A DNA stretch of 64,000 nucleotides from positions 124,001 to 188,000 of the forward strand of contig CANDCH010000001.1 of assembly GCA_947383145.1 (NCBI GenBank). Reading direction: 5' to 3'. Below, piece by piece: positions 1-50,875 of this stretch; positions within the stretch are counted from its first letter, which is position 1; each line of letters starts with the position of its first letter. The notes beneath the pieces are model-generated. The model was not told the origin of the DNA. It did no database searches and saw nothing but the letters and a program-made list of their open reading frames with translations. The stretch is from an uncultured bacterium (lineage in GTDB: Bacteria; Bacillota; Clostridia; Oscillospirales; Oscillospiraceae). Both the position numbers and the translations under genes were made by a program.

Positions 1-2164
1 TCCAGGAGGCGGCCAGCACCGGGGGAGCCGGGTAGCCGCACACCCCGTCGATCCAGTTTTTCCCCGACTGGTCGGGGAGGGTGAGGCCCTGGGGCCCGTC
101 CCGCTCCAGGGACACGGGCTTGCCGATGGCGTCCACCGCGCCGGTCTGATAGGCGCACGCGAACAGGGCCCGCCGCAGCTCCTCCTCATCGGAGTAGGCG
201 AGCTGGTCCAGCAGGTCGTTCCACATGGGGTCACGGTAGCTCCGGCCCCGCAGATCGGCCAGCACCAGGCCGCCCTCCGCCCCGGCGGCGGGGGCGGACT
301 CCCGGAAAACGGCGCTGCCCGGCACATTGCCCAGCAGGGGATCGGTTTTATAATCAAATTTCGTGGAATCGCCGGCGGATATCCATTCCTTCACCGCGTC
401 CGACGCCCATCGGTCCAGCTCGGTGGGGGCGGTGGGCTGAGTGCCCCGCCAGTCCCCGCGGGAGAGGACCGCCGCCCCGCTCACCGGCTGTCCGGACATA
501 TACGCGTCCAGCTCCGGGAACCGGTTGACCGCCGCCCGCGGCTCCCCCCGCCTGGGATTTTGGCCGTCGTACCAGACCGTGGCGGGCACAAGTATTTCGC
601 GCAGGTCCAGCACCCTGTGGGAGTCGGCGCGCAGGGAGACGGTATACGTTCCCTCCTCCAGCATATAGCAGCCGGCGGTGCCGTCCCCGTTGTCCCGGGC
701 GGCGCAGTAGGAGGCCATGTCCTCCAGGGCAAAGCGCACCTCCACGTCCTCATACGCTCCCGGCGCCAGCAGCCCGGTTTTCCCAAAACCGGCCAGCACG
801 GCGGCGGGCTTCTCTATGCCCAGCCTCCGGTCCAGCCCGGTATAGAGGGCGGTGAAATAGGCCTGCACCACGTCCTTTCCGGCGTATTGGCCGCCGGTGT
901 TGGTCACCCGGACGGTGAGGCGGACCTCCTCCCCCTGCGCCGAAAACGAGCGGATTTCCTGGCGGAACGCGGTGTAGGACAGTCCGTACCCAAAGGGGTA
1001 AAGCACGCCGTCCTCCCGGCTGTAAAAGTCCGCCGCACCCTCGGCGCAGGCGGTCTCGTAATAGCGGTAGCCCAGGTACACCCCCTCCTCATACTCCCGG
1101 AAGGGGGCGCGGGCCATGTCCTGCCAGCCCCCGGAGGACACCAGGGTGGTAAAGGCGTTCTCGTACAGGAAGCGGGCGCTGCCGTCGTCCTGGTTGGGGA
1201 AGGTGGGGTCGCGCTTGAAGCTGGCCGCCCAGGTGTCGGGCAGGCGGCCGGAGGGGTTCACCCGCCCGGTGAGGATGTCCCCCAGGGAGAGATAGCCCGT
1301 GCTCCCCGCGCCCCCAAGCCACAGAATGGCGGACACGCCGGGGTCGTCCTCCCACACGGAGACCTCCATGGGGGAGGGGCAGGCCAGCACCACCACCACG
1401 GCGGCGCAGGCCCTTTCCGCGTAGGCCACCGTGTCCAGCTCGGCGGCGGTGGGGGCCAGCATATGGGGGGTCGCGTCGTCGTAAACGGCGGTGGACGCGT
1501 CCTGATTTTCTCCGGTCTGCCGGGCGATGAACACCACCCCTACCGTCCCGGCGCAGGAGTCCTCCGTCCCCTGGTACACCGCTGGGGCGAACTCGTACAG
1601 CGCCTGCCCGCCGTCATTCTCCCTCAAGGGGCGGCATACGGCGATCTGCCCGTTTTCCGCCAGCGCTCCCCCGGCCCCCAGGGCCTGGGCGTACCGTCCC
1701 TCCAAATCGGCGTTGACCTGGGAAAAGGCGGCGGACAGGCCCTCCGCCGGGGTGGCCACCTGCCCCTCGCCGCTGCCGATGGCGGAGGAGCCGGTGCCGC
1801 CGTAGAAGGGCAGGGCGTAGCGCAGGCCGAAGGGGGAGACGGCGGCGGACTCCTCCAGGGGGAGCAGGCCGTCGTTTTTCAGCAGAACGGTCCCCTCGCC
1901 GCCGATCCGGCGGGAGAGGGCGGTGGCGGCGGCCAGCGCCTCCCGCCTGCCGCTGTAGCGCTGTTCATAGTAGCAGGCGTCCGGCTGTCCCTGTCCGCCG
2001 ACAGGGGCGACGGTACGCGCTCCCCGGCCAAACAGCTTGTCCAGCGTTCCGGCGTTGGACCGCATCCCCACGGTTACCGTGACGGCCAGGGCGGTGAGCA
2101 GCGCCATGGCGGGCAGGAAAATCTGCCGCAGCCGCCGGGCGCTGGGGGGTGTTTTTCGTTTCAT
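1..2164 (-). CDS. Membrane-anchored GH3 family glycoside hydrolase, reversed domain order (partial; C-terminus outside window)
   Basis: The reading frame stays open to the window edge, so about 721 N-terminal residues are visible. A basic N-terminus is followed by a hydrophobic segment (about residues 14-34) that would anchor the protein with its catalytic part outside. The order seen is an alpha/beta sandwich segment (GEGTVLLKN, then YGGTGSS, then GRVNPSGRLPDTW), an FnIII-like stretch (VTNTGGQYAGKDVV) and the start of the TIM barrel, where the window cuts at VLAASW. This is the reversed GH3 order known from Butyrivibrio and Ruminococcus beta-glucosidases. The catalytic Asp lies outside the window. 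The ATG overlaps the stop of the upstream kinase (ATGA) and has a GGAGGG ribosome site, so translation is probably coupled. Substrate unknown; a beta-glycosidase is likely. Confidence 0.88.
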   Translation of the reverse strand, partial: MKRKTPPSARRLRQIFLPAMALLTALAVTVTVGMRSNAGTLDKLFGRGARTVAPVGGQGQPDACYYEQRYSGRREALAAATALSRRIGGEGTVLLKNDGLLPLEESAAVSPFGLRYALPFYGGTGSSAIGSGEGQVATPAEGLSAAFSQVNADLEGRYAQALGAGGALAENGQIAVCRPLRENDGGQALYEFAPAVYQGTEDSCAGTVGVVFIARQTGENQDASTAVYDDATPHMLAPTAAELDTVAYAERACAAVVVVLACPSPMEVSVWEDDPGVSAILWLGGAGSTGYLSLGDILTGRVNPSGRLPDTWAASFKRDPTFPNQDDGSARFLYENAFTTLVSSGGWQDMARAPFREYEEGVYLGYRYYETACAEGAADFYSREDGVLYPFGYGLSYTAFRQEIRSFSAQGEEVRLTVRVTNTGGQYAGKDVVQAYFTALYTGLDRRLGIEKPAAVLAGFGKTGLLAPGAYEDVEVRFALEDMASYCAARDNGDGTAGCYMLEEGTYTVSLRADSHRVLDLREILVPATVWYDGQNPRRGEPRAAVNRFPELDAYMSGQPVSGAAVLSRGDWRGTQPTAPTELDRWASDAVKEWISAGDSTKFDYKTDPLLGNVPGSAVFRESAPAAGAEGGLVLADLRGRSYRDPMWNDLLDQLAYSDEEELRRALFACAYQTGAVDAIGKPVSLERDGPQGLTLPDQSGKNWIDGVCGYPAPPVLAASW

Positions 2165-3510
2165 TTCCGGCCCTCCTCAGCGCGCAGGTATTTGCCGGGG
2201 TCCAGGGGAAAGAGGATGTTCACGTTGAACACCTGATCCTTGGCGTGGAAGCTGATGGTCCCCCCGTATTTTTCCACAATGAGCGCCATGCTCTTCACGC
2301 CGAAGCCGTGATAGCCCGTCTCCGCCCGGTTGGAGACGGGCAGGCCCCGTTCCATGCGCACCTCCCCGCCGTAGTAGTTGTGGGAGTTGATGGATAACAG
2401 GGCCCGCTCGGCCCGGACGCTGAAGCTGATCACCCGCTTGTCCGGCTCCAGCGCCGTCACGCTGCGGATGGCGTTGTCCAGCAGGTTTCCGAACAGGGAG
2501 TAGATGTCGCTGTCCGGCATAAAATCCAGCTTGGCCCCGTCGGCAATGCAGCTGATGGTGACGCCGTTTTTCTGGCAGTAGAGGTTTTTTTCCGCCAGAA
2601 TGATGTCCAGGGCCTGATTTCCTGTCTTGACGATGGTGCCATAGATGGAGATGACGCTCTCCATCTCCTCCAGGGCGGCCGGGTCGATGGCCGTCTGGCG
2701 GCTGATGGCCCGGATCTGATGCTTCATGTCGTGGCACTTCACGTTGATCAGATCAATGGTCTCCTTGGAAATTTCGTACTGCTTCTGCTCCTGCCGCCAC
2801 ATCTGGCAGACCACCTCCAGCTCCGCCTCCAGGGATTTCTGGAGCAGCAGGGAGAACAGAATCACCAGCACCGACAGGCTGCAAATGATGTTGGTCAGCG
2901 AGGCGGCCAGATAGTAGGTCAGGTCCAGGTTTTCGTACTTGTGGTAAATGACCACGGCGTTCAGAACAATTTCCACCAGCACCGTCAGCGCCACCAGCAC
3001 CAGCAGGGAAGGCCGCTGGATGGACACCTCCCCGCCCTTGTTCAGCCGGTGGCCGAACGTCTGGTACAGCGCCCAGTACACCAGGGCGTATACCTCCAGA
3101 AAAATGGCGGCGGGGATGGGGTCAAACCGGGCGGGGGCGTTGGAGTACACCTGGGTGGTGCCGGAAAAGCCGGCGATGGTGAGCACCAGGTCATAGCACA
3201 CCGAGGCCAGGTGCTGCACGCTGTACCCCGCCACGGTGCAGAACACGCACCCCCGCCAGCCCGCGTCGAAGCAAAGCTTGGCCGCGGGAATGGTGAGGGT
3301 GAAAAAGGCCAGAAACATCACCGAGCTGTACAGCGCGTCATAGCGCAGAATGGGAAAAGCCAGCGCCGCCAGGAAGCAGCCTGCCGCCGCCGCGCCGGCC
3401 CGCAGGGGGAATCGGTCCCGCCGGGGCAGGCGGAACAGGAACAGCGCCTCCGCAAGCAGCAGGGCGGCCATGAACTGGAGCTTGTAGGCAAACAAGCTGG
3501 TGAGTCCCAT
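2161..3510 (-). CDS. GHKL sensor histidine kinase (AgrC/LytS-like), system 1
   Basis: A 449-residue membrane sensor. The first ~190 residues are mostly hydrophobic and look like a polytopic sensor domain. A helical stretch follows with the phospho-acceptor motif KCHDMKHQI (His260), then the HATPase_c fold with the N-box NLLDNAIRS and a GFGVKSM glycine box. It should autophosphorylate and pass phosphate to the LytTR regulator just upstream. I chose the ATG at 3510 because it overlaps the regulator's stop codon (ATGA) and because the upstream extension is a shadow of the regulator gene. Its own stop overlaps the start of the GH3 gene, making one translationally coupled three-gene operon. No agrB/agrD-like signal genes are seen nearby, so the ligand is unknown. 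Confidence 0.9.
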   Translation of the reverse strand: MGLTSLFAYKLQFMAALLLAEALFLFRLPRRDRFPLRAGAAAAGCFLAALAFPILRYDALYSSVMFLAFFTLTIPAAKLCFDAGWRGCVFCTVAGYSVQHLASVCYDLVLTIAGFSGTTQVYSNAPARFDPIPAAIFLEVYALVYWALYQTFGHRLNKGGEVSIQRPSLLVLVALTVLVEIVLNAVVIYHKYENLDLTYYLAASLTNIICSLSVLVILFSLLLQKSLEAELEVVCQMWRQEQKQYEISKETIDLINVKCHDMKHQIRAISRQTAIDPAALEEMESVISIYGTIVKTGNQALDIILAEKNLYCQKNGVTISCIADGAKLDFMPDSDIYSLFGNLLDNAIRSVTALEPDKRVISFSVRAERALLSINSHNYYGGEVRMERGLPVSNRAETGYHGFGVKSMALIVEKYGGTISFHAKDQVFNVNILFPLDPGKYLRAEEGRK

Positions 3511-4223
3511 CAGCCGGTCCCCCCTCCCAGATAGTCGTTGAGAGCCTGGATAAAGGCCCTGCGCCGGGGGCGGCTGATCTGAAGCGACTCCCCGTCCACC
3601 AGCACCGTGTGGCCCTGAATGGCCTGGACATAGTTCAGGTTGACCAAATAGCAGCTGTTGCACCGGGCGAAGATGGCCGGGTCCAGCGCGGCCTCCGTCT
3701 CCTTCAGGTTGCCGTAGGCGTTCACCTCGCCGCCGGTTGTGTGGTAGACCATGCGGTGGCCGGAGATCTCAATGTATTTAATCTGGGAAGCGGACAGGCG
3801 GATCATGTGGTCGGACAGGGTGACCAGCACCTCGGCCTCCCGCCGGGCGGACAGCCTATCCAGCAGGCGGCGGAGCTTGAGGGCGAAGTTGGCGTAGGTC
3901 ACCGGCTTCACCACAAAGTCGAAGGCGTCCACCTCATAGCCCTTCACGGCAAACTGGGCCATATTGGTCACAAAGATCAGGGGCACCGACTGGTCCACCC
4001 GGCGAAGCTGGGCGGCGGCGTCCATGCCGCTGGCCTTGGGCAGGCAGATGTCCATGAGCACCAGGTCGTACACCGGGCGGTAGCGGCTCAAAAACGCCTC
4101 GGCGCTCTTAAAATGGGTGACGGTGAAGGTGGTGCCGGATTCCTGGGCATAGCGGGCAAAATAGGAGCGCATGGTTTCGGCCTCCTCCGTCTCGTCCTCC
4201 ACAATGGCGATATTCCGATTCAA
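3510..4223 (-). CDS. LytTR-family response regulator, system 1
   Basis: A 237-residue response regulator: receiver domain (acidic pocket IVEDE, phospho-acceptor Asp58 in LVLMDI, Lys in FVVKPV) followed by a C-terminal LytTR DNA-binding domain (IKYIEISGHRMVY ... CNSCYLVNLNYV). LytTR proteins bind pairs of direct repeats about two helical turns apart. The start is a TTG at 4223: an in-frame stop lies three codons upstream and the nearby ATG is out of frame. The length matches regulators 2 and 3 exactly (237 residues). It is the first gene of the operon with the kinase and a GH3 enzyme, and is divergent from the GH3 gene at 4441, which is a likely target. Confidence 0.9.
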   Translation of the reverse strand: MNRNIAIVEDETEEAETMRSYFARYAQESGTTFTVTHFKSAEAFLSRYRPVYDLVLMDICLPKASGMDAAAQLRRVDQSVPLIFVTNMAQFAVKGYEVDAFDFVVKPVTYANFALKLRRLLDRLSARREAEVLVTLSDHMIRLSASQIKYIEISGHRMVYHTTGGEVNAYGNLKETEAALDPAIFARCNSCYLVNLNYVQAIQGHTVLVDGESLQISRPRRRAFIQALNDYLGGGTG

Positions 4224-4306: not shown

Positions 4307-4357
4307 CAGGAAGTATGTTCAATTTATGTACGCAAAACGACAGGATACGTGATATTG

Positions 4358-4386
4358 TGGAAATGGGAAACCGGGGATGCTATGAT
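4358..4386 (+). promoter_or_regulatory. Putative promoter of the GH3 genes at 4441 and 6995
   Basis: The -10 is TATGAT (4381-4386). The -35 TGGAAA (4358-4363, spacer 17) is weak, which would suit activator dependence. I searched 4310-4357 for LytTR-type direct repeats and found none convincing. Confidence 0.45.
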
Positions 4387-4440
4387 ACGGGCAGAACCCC
4401 TCCAGACAGGGGAGATTATCATGAGGAAGGAGCAAATACC

Positions 4441-6918
4441 ATGAAAAAGTGGAAAAAGTCCCTTGCAGGCCTTCTGAGCGCGGCGATGCTGCTTGGCCTG
4501 CTGTGCGCCTGCAACAGCGCGGAGCAGCCCTCCGGCAGCGGGGCCCCGGAGGCCTCGAACAGCCCCAGCGCGGCGGCCAGCCAGCCGGCGGGCGGCGGCG
4601 GAGACTACCCCCTGGAGCCCCAGGAGCTGGGCTCCGGCGAGGTGAAGTGGAGCGAGGAGAAGACCGCCGACGGCTGGACGAAGGTGACCAACCAGGGCGG
4701 CGAGACTCTGGGCTGCTCCCCGGACAGCGGCGTGAAGCTCATCCAGGTGGACGGCTTCGCGTTCAAGGACCTGAACCGCAACGGCAAGCTGGATTTGTAT
4801 GAGGACTGGCGGCAGGAGGACAATGACCGGGCGGCGGATTTGGCCTCTCAGCTCCCGGCGGAAAGCATCCTGCCCCTGATGATCCATGAGTCGGTTTTCA
4901 ACATTACGGAGAAAATCGACGAGGACGGCTTCAAGGCCTGCCTGGACGAGGGCAAGCGCACCGTTCTGAACTTTGGCACCTCCTTCCCCGCCAAGACCCA
5001 GGCGGGCTGGAACAACTCCATCCAGGCCTACGCCGAGGGCAAGGACTACGGCATTCCTGTGGATATCAGCACCAACCCCCGCACGATGGATATATTCCCC
5101 GAGAACTTGGCCCTGGCAGCCACCTTTAATACCGATCTGGCCGCCGAGGTTTCCAAGGAGCTCGCCAAGGAGTACCGCGCGCTGGGCGTTATCACCCTTC
5201 TGGGTCCCCAGATCGACCTGTCCACTGAACCCCGGTGGAGGCGCATCAGCGGCGCGTATGGCGAAGACCCCGCCCTGTCCCGCGACATGACCAACGCAAC
5301 CACCAGCGCCTATCAGTCCACCTATGACGAGAGTGGAAAGGATCTGGGCTGGGGTTCGGAGAGCGTCATCGGCATGATTAAGCACTATCCCGGCGACGGC
5401 GCCGCCGAGTCAGGCCGTGAGGCCCACGCCGCTTACGGGAAGTACAACGTCTATCCGGGCAATTCCTTTGCCACCCATCTGATTGCTTTCTTCGATGGCG
5501 GTCTGCACCTGGACAGCGTGACTAAGGAAGCGGCGGCAGTCATGCCCTCCTACTCCATTGCCTGGAGCGACGACGAATCCCTGGGTGAGCTGGTAGGCAG
5601 TTCTTTCAGCGAGTTCAAGCTGAATCTTCTGCGCGGCAACGGCTATGACGGCCTGATCTGCACTGACTGGGGCACCTGCCATAATCCGGACGCCTTCATG
5701 TCTACCCCTTGGGGCATGGAGCAGGGGTATGCCAAGCCGGACCGTATGTACAAGGAACTGGTTGCCGGAATCGACCAGATCGGCGGCGAGGAAGATGTGG
5801 GCGCTTTGACTGAGGCATATCAGATGCTGGTGGACGAGCTGGGCGAGGACGACGCCCTGGCCCGCATCCGCGAATCCGCCCGCCGCATCACCCGCCTGTC
5901 CTTCATGGTGGGCCAGTTTGAGAATCCCTACGTCAGCATTTCCGAGGCTGAAAAAATTACCGGCAGCGCCGAGGCCAAGGAACTGGGCACCAGCGCGCAG
6001 CAGCAGTCCGTGGTCATGCTGAAGAATTCCGGCGGTGCCATTCAGGCCAATGTGGGCGGCGACAAGCCCACGGTGTATATTCCCATGCAGTTCAGCGGCG
6101 GCAAGTGGAGCCTGCCGGTGTCTCAGGCCGCCGCCGACGCGGTTTACAACGTCGTGACGGATACCGTGGGCGAACCCACCGGCGCGCCGGACAAGGACGG
6201 TAACGCCACCTATACGGAGCAGGATATCGTGCGCGCCGCCGCTTCCGACCTCGCCAGCTGCGACTATGCCCTGGTCATTGTGAAGAATCCGCAGAACGGC
6301 GGAGGCGGTCACGGCGGCTATGACACCGAGGCGGAGAAGTATATCCCCATCTCCCTCCAATACGGCGACTATGTGGCTGATTCTGAGGGCGTCCGTAAGG
6401 AGTCCATCGCCGGCGACATGGTGGAAACTCAGGTTCAGAACGAGTACGGTACGGTGACGGTCATGGCGAAGGAAAACCGTTCCTACTACGGGGAGAGCGC
6501 GATTATCACCAACAAGTCCGATCTGGACAGCATCCTTTACGCCGCGGAGAATATGCCGGACAGCGCCAAGATCATTGTGGCGGTCAACGCCGACAGGCCC
6601 ATGGTATTCTCGGAATTTGAGGACAAAGTGGACGCCATTCTGATGGGCTTTGGTATCAATAACGACATCTTCCTGGACATTGCCACCGGAAAGGTGGAGT
6701 CCTCCGGCCTGCTTCCCCTCCAGATGCCCGCCAGCATGGAGGTCGTGGAAGCCCAGCTGGAGGACGTCCCCCGGGACATGGAGTGCTACACCGACGCCAA
6801 CGGCAATACCTATGACTTCGGCTTCGGCCTGAACTGGTCCGGCGTGATTCAGGACGAGCGCACCGCGAGGTACTGCGTGCCCGCCCTCACCGCCCCCGAG
6901 ACAGTTTCCATCGGCTGA
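4441..6918 (+). CDS. GH3 family glycoside hydrolase, surface lipoprotein (GH3-A)
   Basis: 825 residues. The lipoprotein signal ends in LLGLLCAC and a low-complexity Ser/Ala/Gly/Pro linker follows. An EF-hand-like loop, DLNRNGKLDLYEDW (about 110-123), precedes the TIM barrel. Barrel motifs include IDLSTEPRW, the Lys-His pair in IKHYPGDG and the presumed nucleophile Asp409 in LICTDWG; the alpha/beta sandwich comes after it, the usual GH3 order. The C-terminus (EDVPRDMECYTDANG, then FGLNWSGVIQ) is shared with the lipoprotein GH3s at 40164, 42828 and 45292. The start is the ATG at 4441 after AGGAAGGAG, since only this start gives a signal peptide. It is divergent from system 1 and followed by a membrane GH3, probably co-expressed. 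Substrate unknown. Confidence 0.92.
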   Translation: MKKWKKSLAGLLSAAMLLGLLCACNSAEQPSGSGAPEASNSPSAAASQPAGGGGDYPLEPQELGSGEVKWSEEKTADGWTKVTNQGGETLGCSPDSGVKLIQVDGFAFKDLNRNGKLDLYEDWRQEDNDRAADLASQLPAESILPLMIHESVFNITEKIDEDGFKACLDEGKRTVLNFGTSFPAKTQAGWNNSIQAYAEGKDYGIPVDISTNPRTMDIFPENLALAATFNTDLAAEVSKELAKEYRALGVITLLGPQIDLSTEPRWRRISGAYGEDPALSRDMTNATTSAYQSTYDESGKDLGWGSESVIGMIKHYPGDGAAESGREAHAAYGKYNVYPGNSFATHLIAFFDGGLHLDSVTKEAAAVMPSYSIAWSDDESLGELVGSSFSEFKLNLLRGNGYDGLICTDWGTCHNPDAFMSTPWGMEQGYAKPDRMYKELVAGIDQIGGEEDVGALTEAYQMLVDELGEDDALARIRESARRITRLSFMVGQFENPYVSISEAEKITGSAEAKELGTSAQQQSVVMLKNSGGAIQANVGGDKPTVYIPMQFSGGKWSLPVSQAAADAVYNVVTDTVGEPTGAPDKDGNATYTEQDIVRAAASDLASCDYALVIVKNPQNGGGGHGGYDTEAEKYIPISLQYGDYVADSEGVRKESIAGDMVETQVQNEYGTVTVMAKENRSYYGESAIITNKSDLDSILYAAENMPDSAKIIVAVNADRPMVFSEFEDKVDAILMGFGINNDIFLDIATGKVESSGLLPLQMPASMEVVEAQLEDVPRDMECYTDANGNTYDFGFGLNWSGVIQDERTARYCVPALTAPETVSIG

Positions 6919-12750: not shown

Positions 12751-13463
12751 TACCGATACCCCCCTCCCATGTAGTCAGACAGAGCCTGTAAAAAGCTTTT
12801 CTGTTTGGAACGGCTCAGGGGAACCGCCTCCCCCTCCACCAGCACCGTGTCCCGCCGGACGCTGGACACGTGGCGCAGGTTTGCCAGATGGCTGTGGCTG
12901 CACCGGGCGAAGGGCTGGCCCTCCAGGGCCTGCTCCAGCTTGGACAGCGTCCCGTTGGTGACGTACACCCGGTCCGCCGTATGGACGTGGATGTGGCGGT
13001 TGGCCACCTCGATATAGCGGATGTCCGCCGTCAGCACCCGGAACAGCTCCCCGTTTTCCGACACCAGCAGGAACCGCTCCTCCCGGCGGCGGATGATCTC
13101 CTCCACGTGGCGCAGGCGCATGGCCAGCTTGGCGTAATTCACCGGCTTGAGGACGAAGTCCAGGGCGCTGACCTCATAGCCCCGGATGGCGTACTTCCCC
13201 ATGTAGGTGATGAAGATGATGAGCACCGCCGGGTCCGCCGCCCGGATGCGCCGGGCCGCCTCCATCCCGTCCAGGTGAGGCATCTCGATGTCCAGCAGGA
13301 GCACGTCCCACACCGGGCGGTACGCCTCCGCCAGCTCCATGCCGTCGGGGAACACCTGGAGCTGGAGCTCCAGGCCGTGCTCCCGGCAGTACCGCTCCAC
13401 AAAGGAACGCAGGTCCGCCGCGCACTTCGGGTCGTCCTCCGCGATGGCCAGCTTCAGCACCAT
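12750..13463 (-). CDS. LytTR-family response regulator, system 2
   Basis: 237 residues: receiver (acidic pair AEDD, phospho-acceptor Asp58 in VLLLDIEMP, Lys in FVLKPV) plus LytTR domain (IRYIEVANRHIHVHT ... CSHSHLANLRHV). I chose the ATG at 13463 because GGGAGGGGGG lies 7 bases upstream and the length then equals the sister regulators; the longer frame to 13523 would begin upstream of the promoter -10 hexamer. Transcribed from its own promoter at 13492-13520 and coupled to the kinase gene. Confidence 0.9.
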   Translation of the reverse strand: MVLKLAIAEDDPKCAADLRSFVERYCREHGLELQLQVFPDGMELAEAYRPVWDVLLLDIEMPHLDGMEAARRIRAADPAVLIIFITYMGKYAIRGYEVSALDFVLKPVNYAKLAMRLRHVEEIIRRREERFLLVSENGELFRVLTADIRYIEVANRHIHVHTADRVYVTNGTLSKLEQALEGQPFARCSHSHLANLRHVSSVRRDTVLVEGEAVPLSRSKQKSFLQALSDYMGGGYR

Positions 13464-31445: not shown

Positions 31446-31452
31446 CTTTTTG

Positions 31453-31493
31453 CACAACAAAGCGCCGGGGCGGCCCATGGCCGCCCCGGCGCT
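31453..31493 (-). terminator. Terminator of the system 3 regulator-kinase operon
   Basis: A perfect 15-bp stem: AGCGCCGGGGCGGCC (31461-31475) against GGCCGCCCCGGCGCT (31479-31493), with a 3-base loop. On the minus strand it is followed by TTGTTGT, a modest T-rich tail. Confidence 0.75.
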
Positions 31494-31506
31494 CTCTTAC
31501 GATTGT

Positions 31507-32823: not shown

Positions 32824-32843
32824 TAATTTCTCCTCCTCTCCCG

Positions 32844-39004: not shown

Positions 39005-39958
39005 ATGAATCAATATTTTATTTCCAGTGTGGGGGAGCGGGCCGCCAAGGGCCAGCAATTATCGACCCAAGGACATTACGCCATTGGAATAGAGCTGACC
39101 TCCGGCCATATCCGCATGCTCGCGGTGGACTTGCTGGTGCGCAGGCTGGGCGCAAAAACGGTGGCCATTCCGTTTCAGGCCAATGACGAATACGCGCTGC
39201 GCCTGACCCGGGCGATAGAGGATTTTATCGACGAGGAGGGGCTGTCGCGCCAGCGGCTGCTGGGCGTCGGGGTTACGGTCCCGGGAATTGTGGACGCCGG
39301 CCGGACGCACATCACCGACGCGCCCACCATCCAGGTGAAGCAGATGGCCGCGGCGGATCTGATCGGCCATATCCCATACCCTGTCTGGCTGGAAAACGAC
39401 GCAAACGCCGGGGGATACGCGGAGTGGTGGAACCGCGCGGGGGTGGCGGATATGGCCTATCTGTCTGTGGGGCGCGGCGTGGGCGGCGCGATTCTGATCG
39501 CGGGCAGCACCTACTTAGGCACACATACCCGTTCCGGGGAATTCGGACATATGTGCATCCATCCCGGCGGCAAAATCTGTGAGTGCGGCCAGCGGGGATG
39601 CCTGGAGGCGTACTGCTCCACAGGCAGGCTGTCGGACGCGCTGGGCATCTCCCTGGAGGAATTTTTCAGCGGTATGGAGGGCGGGAACGGGGAGTACCGC
39701 AGCCTGTGGAACGACTATCTGGACAACCTGGCCATTGGCGTCCGGAACATCCATGTGATTCTGGACTGCGGAATTGTGATCGGGGGGAAGCTCTCCCAAT
39801 TCCTCGCGCGCCACTTCGCGGAGATGGAATCAAGGCTGCGAAAACTTGACGCCGGTTATCTGCGGGAGCCGTACCTGTCCATCTGCCGGTACCGCTCCCA
39901 CTCCACTGAAATCGGCGCGGCGCTGTACTTCATCGACAAGTTTATCAAGGAGCACTGA
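39005..39958 (+). CDS. ROK family protein (sugar kinase type, no DNA-binding domain)
   Basis: 317 residues. Seen: the ROK N-terminal nucleotide-binding start AIGIELTSGHIRMLAVDL, the catalytic stretch WLENDANAGGYAEWW, the EFGHM loop and the zinc motif CECGQRGCLEAYC. There is no N-terminal helix-turn-helix, so it is the kinase branch of the family rather than an NagC/XylR repressor. The first phosphate-binding loop has Glu-Leu-Thr instead of the usual Asp-x-Gly-Gly-Thr, so kinase activity needs proof. Third gene of the system 4 operon, which places sugar phosphorylation or sensing beside the signalling pair. A terminator follows. Confidence 0.85.
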   Translation: MNQYFISSVGERAAKGQQLSTQGHYAIGIELTSGHIRMLAVDLLVRRLGAKTVAIPFQANDEYALRLTRAIEDFIDEEGLSRQRLLGVGVTVPGIVDAGRTHITDAPTIQVKQMAAADLIGHIPYPVWLENDANAGGYAEWWNRAGVADMAYLSVGRGVGGAILIAGSTYLGTHTRSGEFGHMCIHPGGKICECGQRGCLEAYCSTGRLSDALGISLEEFFSGMEGGNGEYRSLWNDYLDNLAIGVRNIHVILDCGIVIGGKLSQFLARHFAEMESRLRKLDAGYLREPYLSICRYRSHSTEIGAALYFIDKFIKEH

Positions 39959-42706: not shown

Positions 42707-42799
42707 GTCCCAATTTGCGTTTGCGTTCCCAGGCTGAACATGTCCCCGTGATTCCCGCCCCCGCAGGGGCGGGAATCACGGGAAAACATTGGGACTTTT
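42707..42799 (+). terminator. Nested inverted repeat, possible attenuator between GH3-E and GH3-F
   Basis: A perfect 17-bp inner stem (42745-42761 with 42766-42782, loop CGCA) lies inside an outer stem GTCCCAAT (42707-42714) / ATTGGGAC (42788-42795), followed by TTTTC. It may reduce read-through or stabilise the upstream mRNA. Confidence 0.6.
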
Positions 42800-42827
42800 C
42801 AGAAATGATTGTGAAAAGGAGATCAAT

Positions 42828-45263
42828 ATGAAAGGGTTTCACAAGAGAATTTGCGCTCTGTTTCTGGCCGGGATGATGCTGTCCTCCGCGCTGGCGGGCT
42901 GTAATGCCGGCAGCGCGGAAAGCTCAGACCCGGCGCAGACTCCCTCCGAAGCGCTTCCCACCGCCCAGCCCTCTCAGCCGGTTCCAAGCGAAGCCGCAAA
43001 AAGGTGGAGCGAGGAGACCACAAAGGAAGGCTGGATTCGAGTCGCCAACCAGGACGGGGCGGTGCTGGGCTATTCCCCCGACTCCGGGGTCAAGCTGATC
43101 GAGTCCGACGGGTATGCCTTTAAAGACCTGAACAAAAACGGCGTGCTGGACCCCTATGAGGACTGGCGGCTGGACATCGAAACCCGCGCAGAAAACGCGG
43201 CGGCTTTCCTGTCCGACGACGAGATGATCGCCATGATGCTGCTGGGCACGGACCGCACCGGCGGCGCCGACGGGAATATCGCGGACGACGTCAAGGAAAA
43301 GATCGACAACGGCTTCCGCAACCTGACGGCGGCGCCCACAGGGGATATCGCCAATATGGCAGCCTACTCCAATAAGCTCCAGGCGTACGCGGAGGGGAAG
43401 AGCGCCGGAATCCCGATTGACCTGCAGGGCGAGCCGGACCTCTCGGCCGTCTCCGTGTGGCCGTCCGCCCTGAGCCTGGCGTCGTCCTTTGACCCGGAGC
43501 TCATCCATGAATTCGCGAAGATCCGCGGGCAGGAATACCGGGCCATCGGGGTGACGTCGGCGAATATGCCGCAGATCGACTTGGCCACCGAGCCCAGGTG
43601 GTTCCGAATCGCGGAAACCTTTGGCGAGGACCCCGCGCTGGTCATCGATATGGCGCAGGCGTATGTGAACGGGCTGCAGTCCACCTACAGTGAAACCGGC
43701 GAGGACCAGGGCTGGGGCGCGGACAGCGTAGCGGCGTATGTCAAACACTTCCCCAGCGACGGACCTGGCGAGGGGGGCAGAGAGTCCCACCGGCCTTACG
43801 GCAAGTACAGTGTGCAGCCGGGCGGACAGCTGGCCACACACCTGAAGGTATTTGAATCGGTATTTAACCTGGACGGGAAAACCAAGAGCTCGGCCGGCGT
43901 TATGCCCAGCTACTCGATTGGAATAGGCCAGGACGGCGTCGCGCTGGGCGGCGAGCACGTGGGAAGCGGCATGAGCAACTATAAGGTGACGCAGCTGCTG
44001 CGCGGGGACCTGGGCTTCGACGGCGTCGCCGTGACCGACTATGGCGTGATCGACGAGTTCGCCCCGTGGGGCGCGGAGAGCCTGACGGTCGCGGAGCGGT
44101 GCCTGCTGGTTCTGGAGGCCGGCACGGATAAGGTCGGCTCCTCGGACGACCTGGAGGGCATGAAGGGCGGCGCCAAGCTGTACGAGGAGAAGCACGGCGC
44201 GGAGGCCCTGCACGCCCGCCTGACGGAATCCGCGCAGCGCATGATCAAAAATATGCTCAAGCTGGGCCTGGTGGATAACCCGTACCTTCTGGTGGACGAG
44301 AGCAGCGCGAAATACGGAACCAAGGAGCAGCAGGAGGCGTCCCTGGAGGCGCAGCTGAAGTCGGTGGTTCTGCTCAAAAACAGCGGCGATATCATCAAAA
44401 ACCGGCAGGGCGAAAAGCCCACCGTGTACATTCCCCTGGAATACAGTCCGGCCACCGAGGCGGTGCAGATGGGCCCGTTCGCGACTCCGGCCTCCCCGGC
44501 CTCCTTCTCCACCGCGATTGATGCCCGGGTGGCGTCCAATTACTTTAACGTTGTGACGGATACCATCAGCGACACCCTGACCGGACCCGCGGATGAGAGC
44601 GGCAAGCCCACCCTGGGGCCCAACGACGTGATCCGCGCCTCCGAGGCCGAGCTGGCGGCGTGCGACTTCGCCCTGGCGCTGGTCGGCAGCCCCGTTAACG
44701 CGCCGGGCTCCATCGGCATGGGATACGACTCCGAAAAGGAGGAGTACATTCCCATATCCCTGCAATATGGCCCGTACACCGCAAATTCCGCCGACGTTCG
44801 GAAGACCTCCATCGGCGGGGACCTGCTTGCGGACGGGACAAAGGAGAACCGCTCCTATTACGGCAAGTCCTCTATCATCATGAACTCGGATGAACTGGAC
44901 TTTATCCTGGACCTGACCAAAAAGGTCGAACACGTCGTCGTGGTCGTCAAGGCGGCGAACCCCATGATCGTCTCGGAATTTGAGAAGGAGATCGACGGCC
45001 TGCTGGTCCATTTCGGCGGCGTGGGCGACGAGGCGCTGTGCAAGGTCCTCTCGGGCCAGGTGGAACCCAGCGCCCTTCTGCCGGTGCAGATGCCCGCCAA
45101 TATGGAGACCGTGGAGGCCCAGTACGAGGACGTCCCCCGGGACATGGAGTGCTACGTGGACAGCGACGGCAGCGCCTATGATTTCGCCTTCGGCCTCAAC
45201 TGGTCCGGCGTGATCCAGGACGCGCGCACCGCCAAGTACGCCGTAGAACCCCTGAAAGGCTGA
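42828..45263 (+). CDS. GH3 family glycoside hydrolase, surface lipoprotein (GH3-F)
   Basis: 811 residues. Signal ending LSSALAGC, short linker, block KRWSEETTKEGWIRV, EF-hand-like loop DLNKNGVLDPYEDW, TIM barrel (IDLATEPRWFRI, VKHFPSDGPGEGGRESH, presumed nucleophile Asp404 in VAVTDYG), sandwich domain and shared C-terminus EDVPRDMECYVDSDGS. ATG 42828 follows AAAAGGAG. The N-terminal linker differs from GH3-E and GH3-G, so it is the more distant member of the array. Confidence 0.92.
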   Translation: MKGFHKRICALFLAGMMLSSALAGCNAGSAESSDPAQTPSEALPTAQPSQPVPSEAAKRWSEETTKEGWIRVANQDGAVLGYSPDSGVKLIESDGYAFKDLNKNGVLDPYEDWRLDIETRAENAAAFLSDDEMIAMMLLGTDRTGGADGNIADDVKEKIDNGFRNLTAAPTGDIANMAAYSNKLQAYAEGKSAGIPIDLQGEPDLSAVSVWPSALSLASSFDPELIHEFAKIRGQEYRAIGVTSANMPQIDLATEPRWFRIAETFGEDPALVIDMAQAYVNGLQSTYSETGEDQGWGADSVAAYVKHFPSDGPGEGGRESHRPYGKYSVQPGGQLATHLKVFESVFNLDGKTKSSAGVMPSYSIGIGQDGVALGGEHVGSGMSNYKVTQLLRGDLGFDGVAVTDYGVIDEFAPWGAESLTVAERCLLVLEAGTDKVGSSDDLEGMKGGAKLYEEKHGAEALHARLTESAQRMIKNMLKLGLVDNPYLLVDESSAKYGTKEQQEASLEAQLKSVVLLKNSGDIIKNRQGEKPTVYIPLEYSPATEAVQMGPFATPASPASFSTAIDARVASNYFNVVTDTISDTLTGPADESGKPTLGPNDVIRASEAELAACDFALALVGSPVNAPGSIGMGYDSEKEEYIPISLQYGPYTANSADVRKTSIGGDLLADGTKENRSYYGKSSIIMNSDELDFILDLTKKVEHVVVVVKAANPMIVSEFEKEIDGLLVHFGGVGDEALCKVLSGQVEPSALLPVQMPANMETVEAQYEDVPRDMECYVDSDGSAYDFAFGLNWSGVIQDARTAKYAVEPLKG

Positions 45264-45291: not shown

Positions 45292-47774
45292 ATGAAAATG
45301 CAGTTGAAAAAAGCGTGCGGCCTGACGCTGGCGGCGGCCATGCTGCTGTCCCTGCTGGCGGGCTGCAACAACGGCAACGCGGAAGGCTCCGCCCCGGCGG
45401 AGAGCTCCGCGCCCCCCGCGGCGAGCGACGCGGGAAGCGCTCCCTCCCAGCCGGTATCTGCCGGGGAATTGGAAGAGCTGGGCTCCGGCGACGTGAAGTG
45501 GTCCGAGGAGAAGACCGCCGAGGGCTGGATGAAGGTGACCAACCAGGGCGGGACCACCCTGGGCTACTCCCCCGACTCCGGCGTGAAGCTGCTCCAGTCC
45601 GGCGGGTACGCCTTCAAGGATATGAATAAAAACGGCAAGCTGGACCCCTATGAGGACTGGCGGCTGGACGCGGACACCCGCGCCGCGGATCTGGCCGGCC
45701 AGGTGGCGTGGGATCAGATTCCCGGCCTGCTGCTGCTGTCCACCAAGGGCGGACGCAGCACCAACTTCTCCGATGATATGAAGGAGAGCATAAACGCCGG
45801 CGTGCGGACCTTCGACGGCTCGGTGTCCGATGTGAACGACTCGGTGTCCTACACCAACGCGGTCCAGGCCTATGTAGAGGCGCTTGATCTGGCGATTCCC
45901 GTGGACTTCCACGCGGAGACCGGCTCCATGATGAGCGTGAAGCTGGGCACAACCTGGCCCGACACCCTGGGCCTGGGCGCCACGTTTGACCCGGCGATGG
46001 CCCAGAACGCCGGCGAGGCTCTGTCCGCCGTCTACCGCGCCTCGGGCATCACGACGGTGAACTCCCCCCAGATCGACCTGATTACGGAGCCGAGGTGGAG
46101 CCGCTCCGCCGGCAGCTTACGGAGGACCCGCAGCTGGGCTCCGACATGGCCAAGGCGTTTGTGTCCGGCCTGCAGTCCACCTATGACGAGAACGGCGGCG
46201 ACCAGGGCTGGGGCCTGGGCTCCGTCAACGCCCTGCTCAAGCACTTCCCCGGCAACGGCACCGCCGAGGCGGGCCGGGAGGCGCACAATGACTACGGCAA
46301 GTACAACGTATACCCCGGCGACAATTTCTATACCCAGCTGCTTCCCTTCCAGGCGGCCATGGACCTGGACAGCGCAACCGGCTCCGCCGCCGGCGTCATG
46401 CCGGACTACGGCATCGGCATTGACGACAGCGGCGACCCCCTGGGCGGCGAAAAGGTCTCCAGCGCGTACAGCTCCTATAAGATCACCGAGGTCCTGCGGG
46501 GGGAGCTGGGCTTCGACGGCATGGTGGTCACCGACTACGACATCGTGGATGCCCGCCCCTGGGGCACGGAGGACCTCACTGAGACCGAGCGGGCCCTGAT
46601 GATCTTTGAGGCCGGCGTGGACAAGATCGGCAGCTACGCCAACGTGGAGACCCTGCGCGAGGCGATGCAGGCCTATGTGGACAAGCACGGCCAGGAGGAG
46701 GCCGAAACCCGTTTCCGCGATTCCGTGCGCCGGGTGGTGCGCGACATGATCCAGATCGGCCAGATGGACAACGCCTACATCTCCGCCGAGGGGATGAACA
46801 CCGCCATCAAGAACGAGAAGTACGAGGACAACGCCTACGAGGCCCACCTGAAGTCCCTGGTCATGGTGAAAAACAGCGGAAACCTGATCAGTGATAACGG
46901 CGGGGAAAAGCCCACCGTCTACATCCCCATGGTGTACAGCGAGGGCCGTACGGATATGTTCTCCCTGATGATGTTCGGCCCCCAGCCAGCCTCCTGGGCC
47001 ATGCCCGTCAGCGCGAATACCGCCAGCAAATACTTTAACGTCGTGACCGACCGCGTGGCGGATACGCTGACCGGCGAGCCGGACGAGGACGGAAAACCCA
47101 CCGTATCCCGGGACGACATCATCCGGGCCTCCGCGGAGGAGATCGCGGCCTGCGATTTCACGCTGGTGGTCATCAATTCCCCGTCCAACAGCGGCGGCGG
47201 GTTTGACAAGGAGACCGGGGAGTACCTGCCCATCTCCCTGCAGTACGGCAATTATGTGGCCAACTCCCCCTATGTCCGAACCCAGTCCCTGGGCGGCGAT
47301 ACCATTACGATCGAGCAGACGGACGTCTACGGCACCCAGACCGTCAAGAGCAGCGAGAACCGCTCCTATTACGGAAACGCCGCCCGGGTGTCCAACGCGG
47401 ACGAGCTGGACAAGATCGCCTATGCCAACTCCGTCAGCGACAATGTGGTGGTCCTCGTGAAGGCCAGCGGCTCCATGATCGTGTCGGAGTTCGAGTCCAG
47501 CGTGGACGCCATCCTGTTTGATTTCGGCGGGGCCAGCGACGAGGCCGTGTGCGAGGTGATCTCCGGCAGCTATGAGCCCTCCGGCCTGCTGCCCCTCCAG
47601 ATGCCCGTCAATATGGAGACCGTGGAGGCCCAGTACGAGGACGTCCCCCGGGACATGGAGTGCCACGTGGACAGCGACGGCAACACCTATGATTTTGCCT
47701 TCGGCCTGAACTGGTCCGGCGTGATTCAGGACGCGCGCACCGAGAAATACGACGTCCCTCCCCTGGAGGGCTGA
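45292..47774 (+). CDS. GH3 family glycoside hydrolase, surface lipoprotein, frameshifted (GH3-G)
   Basis: The signal ends LLSLLAGC; the linker and GDVKWSEEKTAEGW block nearly equal those of GH3-E; EF-hand-like loop DMNKNGKLDPYEDW. The first frame reads correctly to IDLITEPRWSRSAGS and then turns to nonsense (stop 46599). The sense frame resumes as TEDPQLGSDMAKAF and runs to 47774 with LLKHFPGNG, VVTDYDI (presumed nucleophile) and the shared C-terminus. One missing base near 46119 (AGCTTACGG) explains it; restored length is about 827 residues. Ribosome site CGAGGAGG. Either a recent pseudogene or an assembly error; every catalytic motif is otherwise kept. Confidence 0.85.
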
Positions 47775-47790: not shown

Positions 47791-47833
47791 AGGGCGCACC
47801 GCACCCCATGCTTTCAGGGCAGCGGTGCGCCCT
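47791..47833 (+). repeat. Hairpin between GH3-G and GH3-H
   Basis: AGGGCGCACCGC (47791-47802) pairs with GCGGTGCGCCCT (47822-47833); 12 bp, 19-base loop, followed by GATTATGATT without a real T-tract. Confidence 0.6.
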
Positions 47834-47866
47834 GATTATGATTCAGATTGGAAGGGAGCCGTTATT

Positions 47867-50800
47867 TTGAAAAACAGGAAATGGGTAAAGCCTGTGATTT
47901 TCATCGTGGTTTTTGCCGCGATTACCGCGGGCATTTGGCTCGGCGTCCAGAGCCTGCTGGGGGGCCGGGGCGTAGCGGCCAGCAAGGACGATATTATAGC
48001 CGTCGTGAAGTCTGTCCTCCCCTATTTGATCGTCATGGCGGTTGCGGTCCTCGCGATTGCGGCGGCGTTTATCGTGTGCGCCGTCAAAAAGCCCTCCGCT
48101 GCGGCAAAGCTGACCATTCGGACGCAGACGGTGGCGGCGGGGCTGCTGGCCATCGTCGTGTGCGTCAACCTGATCTGCGTCGGCCCCATGTCCTCCCTGC
48201 TGAATGTCAGCGCGGGCGCCAAGGGGGCCATGTCCGAGACCACCCAGGAGCGGTCCCGCGCTCTGGCGGAGCAGATCGCGGAGGAGGGGATCGTCCTGCT
48301 GAAGAACAAGGACGGCGCGCTGCCCCTGGGCGCGGACGTCACCAAGCTCAACGTATTCGGCTGGGCCTCCACCAACCCGATTTACGGCGGGACCGGATCG
48401 GGGGAATTCTCCAGCGCCGCAGACAAGGTCACGCTGCTGCAGGGCCTTGAGCTGGCCGGCTATGAGCTGAACCAGGATCTGATCAACTTCTATGTAAAAG
48501 AGGAGTCCGAGCGCCCGGAGGTGGGGATGTACATCCAGGACTGGACCAACCCCGAGGCCAAAATCAAGGATATGGACCGGGCGAAGCTGTTCGACGGCGC
48601 AAAGGAGTTTTCGGACACCGCGCTGCTGGTGATCTCCCGCTCCGGCGGCGAGGGCGCCGACCTGCCGGGCAGCATAACGGATGAGAATTCCATCGCCGAG
48701 GCCGCGGCCACGGGGCGGGGGGTTCGGTATACCAGCCAGAAGGACGACGTTGACCCCGAAAAGAGCTATCTGGAATTGACCAGCCGGGAAACCGCCTTAC
48801 TGGAGCGGCTCAACGAGGAGTTCAAGAATATCATTGTGATTATCAATTCGGCCAACACCATGGAGCTGGGCTGGATTGAGGAATACGAGAACATCGGCGG
48901 CGTGATCTGGTGCGCGGGGCCCGGGGAGTTCGGCTTCGCGGCCCTGGGCCGGGTGCTGAACGGCTCTGTGAGCCCGTCGGGCAGGACGGCGGACACCTAT
49001 CTCTATGACCTGACAACCGCCCCCACCTATCGGAATTTCGGCAATTTCGAGTATGACAACGTATCCGAGCTGGTGAACCGCCCGGGAAGCGGCGATAACT
49101 ACAAGGCCACCTTTGTCAACTATGTGGAGGGCATTTACGTAGGCTACAAGTTCTATGAGACGGCGGCGGCGGAAGGGCTCATCGACTACGAAAAAACCGT
49201 GCAGTTCCCCTTCGGCTTCGGCCTGTCCTACGCCTCCTTCCAGCAGGAGCTCACGGAGCTGGCCGAGAAGGACGGCGCTGTGACCTTAAAGGTCAAAGTG
49301 ACCAATGTGGGCTCCACCGCGGGAAAAGATGTGGTTGAAGTTTACTATACGCCGCCTTATACTAATGGTGGGATTGAGAAATCGTCCGTCAATCTGATTG
49401 AGTTCGCCAAAACCGAAACGCTGGAGCCCGGTCAGTCCGAGACGGTGGAGGTCTCCTTCGCGCTGGAGGACATGGCCTCCTATGACGATTTGAACCGGGG
49501 CTGCTATGTGTTGGAGGCGGGGGACTATGAGATCAGCATCCGCTCCGATTCCCACACGGTGCTGGCCGCCCAGACGGTGCATGTGGACGCGGATGTGGTC
49601 TACAACGACAGCGGGGCCGGGGCCCGCCCATCGGACGCCATCGCCGCTGTGAACCGCTTCGACTTCGCTCGGGGGGATGTCACCTACTTGAGCAGGGCGG
49701 ACGGCTTCGCCAATTACGAGAAGGCCACGGCCGCTCCCGCCAGCATGAGCATGAGCGGGGAGGCGAAGGCTGGCTTCATCTCCAACGCGGTCTATGACCC
49801 CGCCGAACATATGGATAACAGCGGGACGGTCCCGGCGGCGGGCGCTTCCAATGGCCTGACGTTAGAGGACATGGCGGGCGCGGAGTACAGCGACGAGCGC
49901 TGGGACGCCCTGCTGGACCAGCTCACGGCGGCGGACATGAACGCCCTGATCTCCGTGGGCGGATATATGACCTCCGAAATACCCAGCGTCGGGTTCCAGG
50001 CAACAGTGGAGACCGACGGCCCCTCGGGCCTGCACAGCAACTACACCGACCTGGCCGGTATCAGCTTCCCCGCCCCGGTGATGCTCGCGTCCACCTGGAA
50101 CAAGGAGCTGGCCAGGGAGTTCGGGGAAGTGGTGGGGCTTGAGGGACAGGAGCTGGGCATTTCCGGCTGGTACGGCCCCGCCATGAACATCCACCGCTCG
50201 GCCTTCTCGGGCCGGAACTTCGAGTATTACTCGGAGGACGCGGTCCTCTCCGGCGTGATCGCGGCCAACGCGGTGGCCGGAGCCAGGGTCCATAATATGC
50301 AGACCTACGTGAAGCATTTCGCGCTGAACGACCAGGAGGGCAACCGGACGAATATGCTGCTGACCTGGAGCAACGAACAGGCGATCCGGGAAATCTATCT
50401 GAAGCCCTTTGAGATGGCCCTCAAGGAGGGCGGCGCCAAGTCCGTCATGAGCTCGTACAACTATATCGGCAACATCTGGGCCGGGGCGTGCGACGCGCTG
50501 CTCAACCAGGTCCTGCGGGGCGAGTGGGGCATCGACTGCACCGTCGTCACCGACTGGTACGGCGGCTACGGCTATATGAACGCCGACCTGTCCATCCGCA
50601 ACGGGGGCGACCGGATGCTCACCACCACCGACACCGCCAAGCTGCTGGACAGCGACAGCGCGGAGGCCAGGACCGCCATGCGCCGGGCGTGCCACAATAT
50701 TCTCTATTCCCTGGCCAATTCCAACGTGTTCGGCAGCAATCTGGGGATGGCCAACTGGAGGATCATCCTGATCGCGGCGGATATCTGCGCGGGCGTCCTG

Positions 50801-50875
50801 CTGGTGATTCTGGAGGCCGTGTACTTCCTGCGCTTGAAAAAAGCGAAGCAGAACGGGCCCGACCCCTCGAAATAA
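47867..50875 (+). CDS. Polytopic membrane GH3 glycoside hydrolase, reversed domain order (GH3-H)
   Basis: 1002 residues from a TTG at 47867, chosen because GGAAGGGAG lies 8 bases upstream and the only earlier start falls inside a hairpin. Three hydrophobic segments at the N-terminus (about 9-28, 50-72, 85-108) precede the sandwich (EEGIVLLKNKDGALPL, YGGTGSGEF, SPSGRTADTY), FnIII (VTNVGSTAGKDVVEVYY) and C-terminal TIM barrel (SAFSGRNFEYYSEDA, YVKHFALNDQE, presumed nucleophile Asp896 in TVVTDWYGG). A last hydrophobic segment (about 962-985) ends in LKKAKQN. Last GH3 of the array; the GH43 gene follows after 22 bases. Confidence 0.92.
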   Translation: MKNRKWVKPVIFIVVFAAITAGIWLGVQSLLGGRGVAASKDDIIAVVKSVLPYLIVMAVAVLAIAAAFIVCAVKKPSAAAKLTIRTQTVAAGLLAIVVCVNLICVGPMSSLLNVSAGAKGAMSETTQERSRALAEQIAEEGIVLLKNKDGALPLGADVTKLNVFGWASTNPIYGGTGSGEFSSAADKVTLLQGLELAGYELNQDLINFYVKEESERPEVGMYIQDWTNPEAKIKDMDRAKLFDGAKEFSDTALLVISRSGGEGADLPGSITDENSIAEAAATGRGVRYTSQKDDVDPEKSYLELTSRETALLERLNEEFKNIIVIINSANTMELGWIEEYENIGGVIWCAGPGEFGFAALGRVLNGSVSPSGRTADTYLYDLTTAPTYRNFGNFEYDNVSELVNRPGSGDNYKATFVNYVEGIYVGYKFYETAAAEGLIDYEKTVQFPFGFGLSYASFQQELTELAEKDGAVTLKVKVTNVGSTAGKDVVEVYYTPPYTNGGIEKSSVNLIEFAKTETLEPGQSETVEVSFALEDMASYDDLNRGCYVLEAGDYEISIRSDSHTVLAAQTVHVDADVVYNDSGAGARPSDAIAAVNRFDFARGDVTYLSRADGFANYEKATAAPASMSMSGEAKAGFISNAVYDPAEHMDNSGTVPAAGASNGLTLEDMAGAEYSDERWDALLDQLTAADMNALISVGGYMTSEIPSVGFQATVETDGPSGLHSNYTDLAGISFPAPVMLASTWNKELAREFGEVVGLEGQELGISGWYGPAMNIHRSAFSGRNFEYYSEDAVLSGVIAANAVAGARVHNMQTYVKHFALNDQEGNRTNMLLTWSNEQAIREIYLKPFEMALKEGGAKSVMSSYNYIGNIWAGACDALLNQVLRGEWGIDCTVVTDWYGGYGYMNADLSIRNGGDRMLTTTDTAKLLDSDSAEARTAMRRACHNILYSLANSNVFGSNLGMANWRIILIAADICAGVLLVILEAVYFLRLKKAKQNGPDPSK

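Follow-up and report, generated by a model that had tools for sequence, protein, structure and literature searches.

Pairs of a LytTR response regulator and a GHKL histidine kinase are known for their parts in peptide signalling, virulence, competence and bacteriocin production. In Butyrivibrio proteoclasticus B316, according to excerpts of Kelly et al. (2010; PMC2914790), three LytTR regulators each lie near a secreted glycoside hydrolase family 3 (GH3) enzyme with a C-terminal transmembrane helix, and it was proposed that the three share one function and govern expression of the enzymes; in the portions of the open-licence literature searched, this was the only mention of a LytTR–GH3 link. 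Here we describe such a neighbourhood in a 64,000-nucleotide stretch of DNA from an uncultured bacterium of the Oscillospiraceae (assembly GCA_947383145.1, contig CANDCH010000001.1, positions 124,001 to 188,000 of the forward strand; hereafter the window). Four LytTR/GHKL pairs and nine GH3 genes share its first 51 kb or so, near the positions at which an earlier note on this DNA had placed them (Table 1), and we think it probable on balance that the window carries a recurrent, glycoside-responsive module in several copies, made up of a LytTR regulator, a GHKL kinase and a surface GH3 enzyme, in which the regulator switches on the GH3 gene. The Butyrivibrio remark, as excerpted, concerns one genome and comes without kinase pairing, domain permutation, operator, enrichment test or spread. 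Added here are the scale of the pairing, the way in which modules are laid out, a partner enzyme that is permuted and anchored, the occurrence in distant genomes and an operator signal.

Like the hybrid two-component systems (HTCS) of Bacteroides, the modules place glycan loci under a two-component system; unlike HTCS, which are single-chain hybrids of a kinase and an AraC regulator, they have separate kinase and regulator chains, a LytTR output and no extracytoplasmic sensor domain that we could see. Excerpts on the Gram-positive polysaccharide utilization loci describe LacI/AraC regulators with ATP-binding cassette (ABC) transporters (PMC5320581), and some of the modules resemble these loci in uniting glycosidase, transporter and regulator; the modules differ in being centred on GH3, and the transporters in those sampled belong to MFS_2. 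The Roseburia locus Ros-7 does contain a LytTR response regulator and a histidine kinase, and its enzymes, as listed in the same excerpts, are GH25, GH43 and GH51, with no GH3 (PMC5320581). It is reasonable to see in the modules an alternative to HTCS or ABC-linked control, as the earlier note did, but the idea is not wholly new, since the neighbourhood had been noted by Kelly et al. (2010). On the enzyme side, the same domain permutation occurs in the GlyA1 subfamily, reported mainly from Firmicutes of animal digestive tracts (PMC5104943); the module enzymes are mostly anchored at both ends, whereas the paper on GlyA1 has 0 occurrences of 'transmembrane', and its excerpts name no two-component partner.

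Domain calls on the window proteins are Pfam profile matches. Response_reg and LytTR domains were found in 4/4 regulators and the GHKL domain HATPase_c_5 in 4/4 kinases, while five of the nine GH3 enzymes have the permuted order GH3_C – Fn3-like – GH3_N and four the conventional one; the order in the first, which the window start truncates, was read from the whole open reading frame (ORF) in locus L001. The PDB chains 5k6l (GlyA1) and 5wug match permuted GH3 with GH3_C first. All four conventional enzymes retain the [ST]D nucleophile motif, and a lipobox is present in all three N-termini examined. One conventional gene (45292–47774) is split over two frames, by sequencing error or by decay; in a relative (L044), the equivalent cluster contains three conventional GH3 ORFs, none of them divided. 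In system 1, the kinase and regulator genes have one base in common and the start of the permuted GH3 gene, at 2164, overlaps the kinase stop by four bases. System 3 lies directly upstream of a permuted GH3 gene on the same strand, with a gap of 182 bases; a C-terminal transmembrane segment was looked for in this enzyme and none was found. System 4 likewise precedes its cluster of four GH3 genes, with the qualification to the earlier note's description that a ROK-family gene intervenes. Its kinase is only 18% identical to that of system 1 and gave a DcuS/MalK-type match far below the cut-off.

The LytTR–GH3 neighbourhood is beyond chance. Expected counts were derived from gene positions, as the share of the genome that lies within a set distance of GH3. 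Of the 16 LytTR genes in the window's genome, which also carries about 20 GH3 genes, 10 are within 6 kb of GH3, system 2 included, against 1.17 expected. Over 25 genomes the figure is 43/148 against 6.1 (all 148 LytTR genes and 152 of 166 GH3 matches were used; three second fragments in the window's own genome and 11 unlisted matches were omitted). All 43 fall in the window's own genus group, in 10 of its 16 genomes; in nine genomes from other families of the order, only three of which carry both gene types, no LytTR gene is near GH3. Relatives share orthologous loci, and these counts are therefore not independent events. A search by similarity to permuted GH3, with a query alignment made largely of module enzymes, confirmed 594 contigs; 78 of the best 80 carry a recognisable permuted GH3, and 32 have LytTR within 6 kb of it. 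For 13 distant genomes, chosen for whole-genome search because their contig had a LytTR gene, 37/103 LytTR genes have GH3 within 6 kb, where 3.4 would be expected; with one near LytTR per genome removed, the count is 24 and the expectation 3.0 (all 103 LytTR genes and 140 of 148 GH3 matches; seven second fragments or very weak matches and one short separate hit were omitted). These genomes range from Cellulomonas and Bifidobacterium to Butyrivibrio and Streptococcus suis, and represent Actinomycetota and Bacillota. Within 10 kb of GH3 lie 4/4 LytTR genes of Bifidobacterium asteroides ESL0199, 5/5 of Alloscardovia omnicolens, 2/2 of Cellulomonas hominis and 1/1 of Demequina iriomotensis.

Seven genomes, chosen because they hold modules, served as controls. 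LacI genes were within 6 kb of GH3 in 3/30 cases, LytTR near GH43 in 0/90 at 6 kb and 1/90 at 10 kb, and GH43 near GH3 in 15/46 at 6 kb (30 of 33 LacI matches were counted, three being below the cut-off, and 46 of 53 GH43 matches, seven second fragments being omitted). The expectation of the earlier note, that the neighbourhood would recur in relatives and be enriched over controls, was thus borne out. The association could in principle be that of bystanders, if both gene types gather in variable genomic islands and are close without regulatory meaning. Module presence does vary between relatives, and the GH43 count shows that other enzymes are also found near GH3. Against this stand the lack of LytTR near GH43 in the same genomes and the recurrence in distant genomes, as well as the preferred gene order and strand, the repeats enriched upstream of linked but not unlinked GH3 genes, and the co-diversification of kinase and GH3 described below, and we regard it as very improbable.

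For the layout, a module was taken to be a regulator–kinase pair plus the nearest permuted GH3 within 6 kb; conventional GH3 genes were not counted. In 52 of 76 modules the GH3 gene is downstream of the pair on the same strand, in 29 of these within 900 bp; the others are divergent (14), have GH3 upstream (6) or are convergent (4). The gap between kinase and GH3, in the 27 tandem modules measured, is at most 30 bp in two, 31–100 bp in two, 101–300 bp in 18 and longer in five. Both modules with the shortest gap are of the system 1 type. The overlaps from which the earlier note derived co-transcription in system 1 are real, but few of the modules measured are joined by overlap (2/27); since most gaps are of 101–300 bp, a separate GH3 promoter is the rule and gene overlap the exception. 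Other arrangements were also seen. In two genomes a kinase-less LytTR regulator directly precedes a conventional-order GH3 lipoprotein (L005:5384-9426, L046:6780-10886), and at L003:10700-16246 and L048:7991-12904 a divergent LytTR/GHKL pair, with low scores to the window profiles, precedes a conventional and a permuted GH3. In Alloscardovia omnicolens (L104:4508-8902), two regulators and kinase-like ORFs in several pieces, through frameshifts or assembly, lie between two divergent permuted GH3 genes. At L070:8719-13732, a regulator and a kinase (358 and 588 bits to the window profiles) are directly downstream of a permuted GH3; the pair's upstream repeat matches that of system 2, and the pair looks like relatives of system 2 in a GH3 setting.

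The same gaps bear on whether these are ordinary Agr/Com-type pairs that answer secreted peptides, with the GH3 genes as members of a regulon for high cell density. The modules share with AgrC/AgrA and ComD/ComE the kinase and regulator domain classes and a multi-spanning sensor; AgrA is among the weak NCBIfam matches, and a sensor of about six transmembrane segments without an ectodomain resembles AgrC. A gap of 101–300 bp is enough for a short peptide gene. The argument that the modules leave no room for such a gene was considered and is contradicted by these measurements, which give peptide signalling more weight and our preferred reading less. In system 1 itself, the overlapping genes leave no such room. 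Furthermore, AgrB (PF04647) had 0 matches in the window's own genome, from an assembly that is 85% complete and with one gene family tested; as a check on the model, 1/14 control genomes matched, below the cut-off. The partner, finally, is specifically GH3, a surface glycosidase, accompanied in sampled modules by glycosidases and symporters. On this evidence, in which the search for Agr parts covered AgrB only, peptide quorum sensing is unlikely.

Published LytTR sites are described, in excerpt, as pairs of 9-bp direct repeats 10–13 bp apart (PMC11347149), and spaced direct repeats that resemble such sites occur in some of the modules. A spacing of 21 bp first stood out in a scan of spacings upstream of the regulators, where 8 of 9 matches occurred at this spacing in 14/87 regions, against 2.0 in shuffles and no more than 8 at other spacings. 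It was then applied to GH3 promoters, the criterion being a 21-bp-spaced direct repeat that matches in 9 or more of 12 positions and lies between −180 and −60, counted from start codons guessed by script. About a third of the permuted GH3 genes that have a regulator no more than 6 kb away (27/77) carry such a repeat; other spacings gave a mean of 3.67 and a maximum of 10, and shuffles a mean of 2.75 and a maximum of 8. In unlinked permuted GH3 the count was 3/47 (linked versus unlinked, Fisher p 2e-4). Both subsets agree, with 12/41 linked promoters in relatives and 15/36 in named contigs. As 21 is a multiple of three, coding sequence could inflate the count; spacings of 18 and 24 gave 5/77 and 8/77. 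The best repeats between kinase and GH3 are those of L020 (12/12 matches), L022 (11) and system 3 of the window (10), and the best in divergent promoters those of L034 (12/12) and L124 (11). The L020 half-site, CAGTTTGTG, fits the LytTR consensus. Repeats with the geometry of LytTR sites upstream of linked GH3 genes lend support to direct control. A class-wide search, with up to four candidates scored per genome, yielded few full-length anchored GH3 enzymes, and the loci obtained were not long enough for testing promoters.

Kinase and GH3 have diversified together to a greater degree than genome effects explain. The correlation between their distances is 0.360, against 0.116 ± 0.029 in within-genome shuffles, which move partners only where a genome holds two or more modules (maximum 0.219; 0/1000 reach the observed value); the positive control, kinase against regulator, gave 0.788. 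The GH3 correlation is only slightly higher for the sensor half of the kinase (0.295) than for the catalytic half (0.262). A scan of the genes that lie between kinase and GH3 covered 11 of the 31 gapped modules; the companions comprise GH2 (4), GH78 (2), esterase-like proteins (2), GH16 (1) and an InlB-type repeat protein (1). An MFS_2 (GPH-type) transporter is present in 4 of the 11 (L021, L032, L098 and L133); no transporter was found in the scan of the genes immediately next to systems 1, 3 and 4. The companion genes suggest that the substrates may be decorated plant glycosides, and their variation between modules, like the co-diversification, indirectly favours the earlier note's idea that each pair is tuned to its own glycoside. 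A possible lead to the substrates is a Bifidobacterium GH3 described, in excerpt, as induced by amygdalin, which it degrades to prunasin, and as sharing an operon with an MFS transporter (PMC9897726). Proteins of the InlB-B-repeat (Flg_new) type stand beside permuted GH3 in two modules (window 26134–27546 and L068:2703-4898) and are candidate glycan- or surface-binding partners.

The enzymes keep their presumed catalytic residues and are anchored at the surface. In the first 60 loci together with the window, 59/83 GH3 ORFs are permuted; here and in the alignment, overlap between loci and the window means that a few ORFs enter the count twice. With the catalytic columns presumed from GH3 motifs, the acid/base Glu is conserved in 58/58 aligned permuted GH3 and the nucleophile Asp in 57/58, with one gap. 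In most of these enzymes, hydrophobic segments flank the catalytic core on both sides. Among the best 80 contigs, LytTR is within 6 kb of 33/63 doubly anchored, 4/12 singly anchored and 0/15 unanchored permuted GH3 (doubly anchored versus unanchored, Fisher 9e-5; four ORFs cut by contig ends are omitted, and two of the 80 loci have no permuted ORF). Unanchored enzymes have lower scores against the GH3 profile and more divergent sequences, and the association of anchors with LytTR may be one of clades, the unanchored enzymes perhaps forming a separate one; the rows are not independent. In the kinases, the phospho-His is present in 75 of 76, with one gap, and 66 of the 68 in which the motif was located have 5–7 hydrophobic segments (mode 6). 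Their largest loops are short (median 38.5 residues, maximum 73), which leaves no obvious ectodomain.

Surface anchoring would also suit pairs that sense membrane or wall state, as has been proposed for LytS, and GH3 enzymes that trim the cell's own wall or surface glycans. LytSR is reportedly linked to membrane-potential signals (PMC4830213), and one conventional enzyme (40164–42692) weakly matches beta-N-acetylhexosaminidase (35.9 bits). Where the scanned enzymes gave stronger matches, these were to beta-glucosidases and an arabinopyranosidase instead: two permuted window enzymes are most like exo-alpha-(1->6)-L-arabinopyranosidase and two conventional ones most like exo-beta-1,3/1,6-glucosidase, each far below the cut-off. 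With GH78, GH16 and MFS_2 symporters in some modules, envelope sensing seems quite improbable. Anchoring also invites the idea of a three-part glycoside sensor of enzyme, kinase and regulator, in which the surface GH3 would be receptor as well as target and the GHKL kinase would read the state of the anchored GH3 or the product that it makes at the membrane, in many copies per genome, one per glycoside, and in two phyla; we entertain this only tentatively. Its strictest form, a co-sensor working purely between transmembrane segments, was favoured by the anchor counts, but the unanchored enzymes may be a separate clade, and it is weakened by the lipoprotein-like partner of system 3 and by the orphan regulators beside lipoprotein GH3 genes (L005, L046).

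We therefore return to the glycoside-responsive module, for which we infer regulator binding, the direction of regulation, the ligand and the substrate. The kinase, with its roughly six transmembrane helices, would sense a cue tied to an external glycoside; this could be the glycoside itself, a sugar or aglycone set free from it, or the GH3 enzyme while it is occupied by the glycoside. The phosphorylated regulator would then bind the paired direct repeats, spaced by 21 bp or two helical turns, that precede the GH3 gene, and sometimes perhaps repeats upstream of its own operon, and once bound would switch on GH3 together with companion glycosidases and transporters. That LytTR/GHKL systems recur next to a single type of surface glycosidase in distant Gram-positive bacteria suggests that glycan loci have another class of control in addition to LacI and AraC; the pairing gives a rule for predicting which genes answer which plant glycoside, and makes testable what signals the many unassigned GHKL kinases of gut bacteria sense.

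Several results count against this picture. Serial pairing with GH3, as the earlier note had it, holds for systems 1, 3 and 4, but system 2 fits poorly: it adjoins GH32, ABC transporter and LacI genes rather than a GH3 cluster, and its nearest GH3 gene is convergent and about 1.5 kb off, beyond a serine-dehydratase gene. Six of the 16 same-genus genomes have no LytTR near GH3, regulators of the same subfamily in the window's own genome (L010, L014) have no GH3 nearby, and 30/63 doubly anchored permuted GH3 lack LytTR within 6 kb, some because of contig ends. The orphan regulators of L005 and L046 adjoin conventional GH3 without an adjacent kinase. Nearest neighbours agree in only 19/76 kinase–GH3 pairs, against 36/76 kinase–regulator pairs. 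As to the operator, a hold-out of 12 further linked GH3 promoters gave the 21-bp repeat in one; among the 27 repeats are some that resemble coding or low-complexity sequence, and others that come from orthologous promoters (L020/L022, L062/L064) and so are not independent. Within the window the repeat is clear only at system 3; the system 4 regulator is preceded by a weak, GC-rich one, and at systems 1 and 2 no repeat is conspicuous. The interpretation offered in the earlier note is, overall, partly supported. Control of the GH3 genes by the neighbouring LytTR/GHKL pair is likely.

Table 1. Features of the window, numbered from its first nucleotide.
Feature	Position	Strand	Basis
System 1 permuted GH3, cut by window start	2..2164	-	Pfam GH3_C + Fn3-like; whole ORF L001:8166-11177
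System 1 GHKL histidine kinase	2161..3510	-	Pfam HATPase_c_5 2.5e-21; phospho-His in alignment
System 1 response regulator	3510..4223	-	Pfam Response_reg 8e-17, LytTR 1.8e-15
Conventional GH3 lipoprotein, divergent from system 1	4315..6918, likely start 4441	+	Pfam; lipobox, TDW motif
Permuted GH3, hydrophobic segments at both ends	6995..9925	+	Pfam order C-Fn3-N; hydropathy
System 2 GHKL kinase	11434..12750	-	Pfam
System 2 LytTR response regulator	12750..13463	-	Pfam
Permuted GH3, third gene downstream of system 3	23193..26126	-	Pfam
Flg_new/Big_3 protein between two GH3 genes	26134..27546	-	Pfam
System 3 permuted GH3, lipoprotein-like signal	27644..31324	-	Pfam
Candidate LytTR operator, system 3 kinase–GH3 gap	31325..31506	-	21-bp-spaced direct repeat, 10/12 matches, 124 bp before GH3 start
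System 3 GHKL kinase	31507..32847	-	Pfam
System 3 LytTR response regulator	32844..33557	-	Pfam
System 4 LytTR response regulator	36995..37717	+	Pfam
System 4 GHKL kinase	37696..38994	+	Pfam; most divergent of the four window kinases
ROK-family gene between system 4 and its GH3 genes	39005..39958	+	Pfam 6e-40
Conventional GH3 lipoprotein	40164..42692	+	Pfam; lipobox
Conventional GH3 lipoprotein	42789..45263	+	Pfam; lipobox
Conventional GH3 over two frames (45292-46599, 46095-47774)	45292..47774	+	Pfam
Permuted GH3, hydrophobic segments at both ends, last of system 4 cluster	47825..50875	+	Pfam; hydropathy

An Rfam scan of the window gave no match at the gathering score. Other genes of the window were identified in passing. 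The neighbours of system 2 (13745–20265) form a classical LacI/ABC sugar locus of GH32, a substrate-binding protein, two permeases and a divergent LacI gene, and a gene of the holin family Phage_holin_4_1 (22425–22901) adjoins a permuted GH3 gene. Between systems 3 and 4 lies a McrBC-like restriction pair (33963–36444; AAA_5 and McrBC Pfam matches). Finally, the last GH3 gene is followed by a sugar catabolism operon (50898–58024) comprising GH43, an FGGY kinase, DUF4867, a fucose-isomerase-like gene and a split transketolase.

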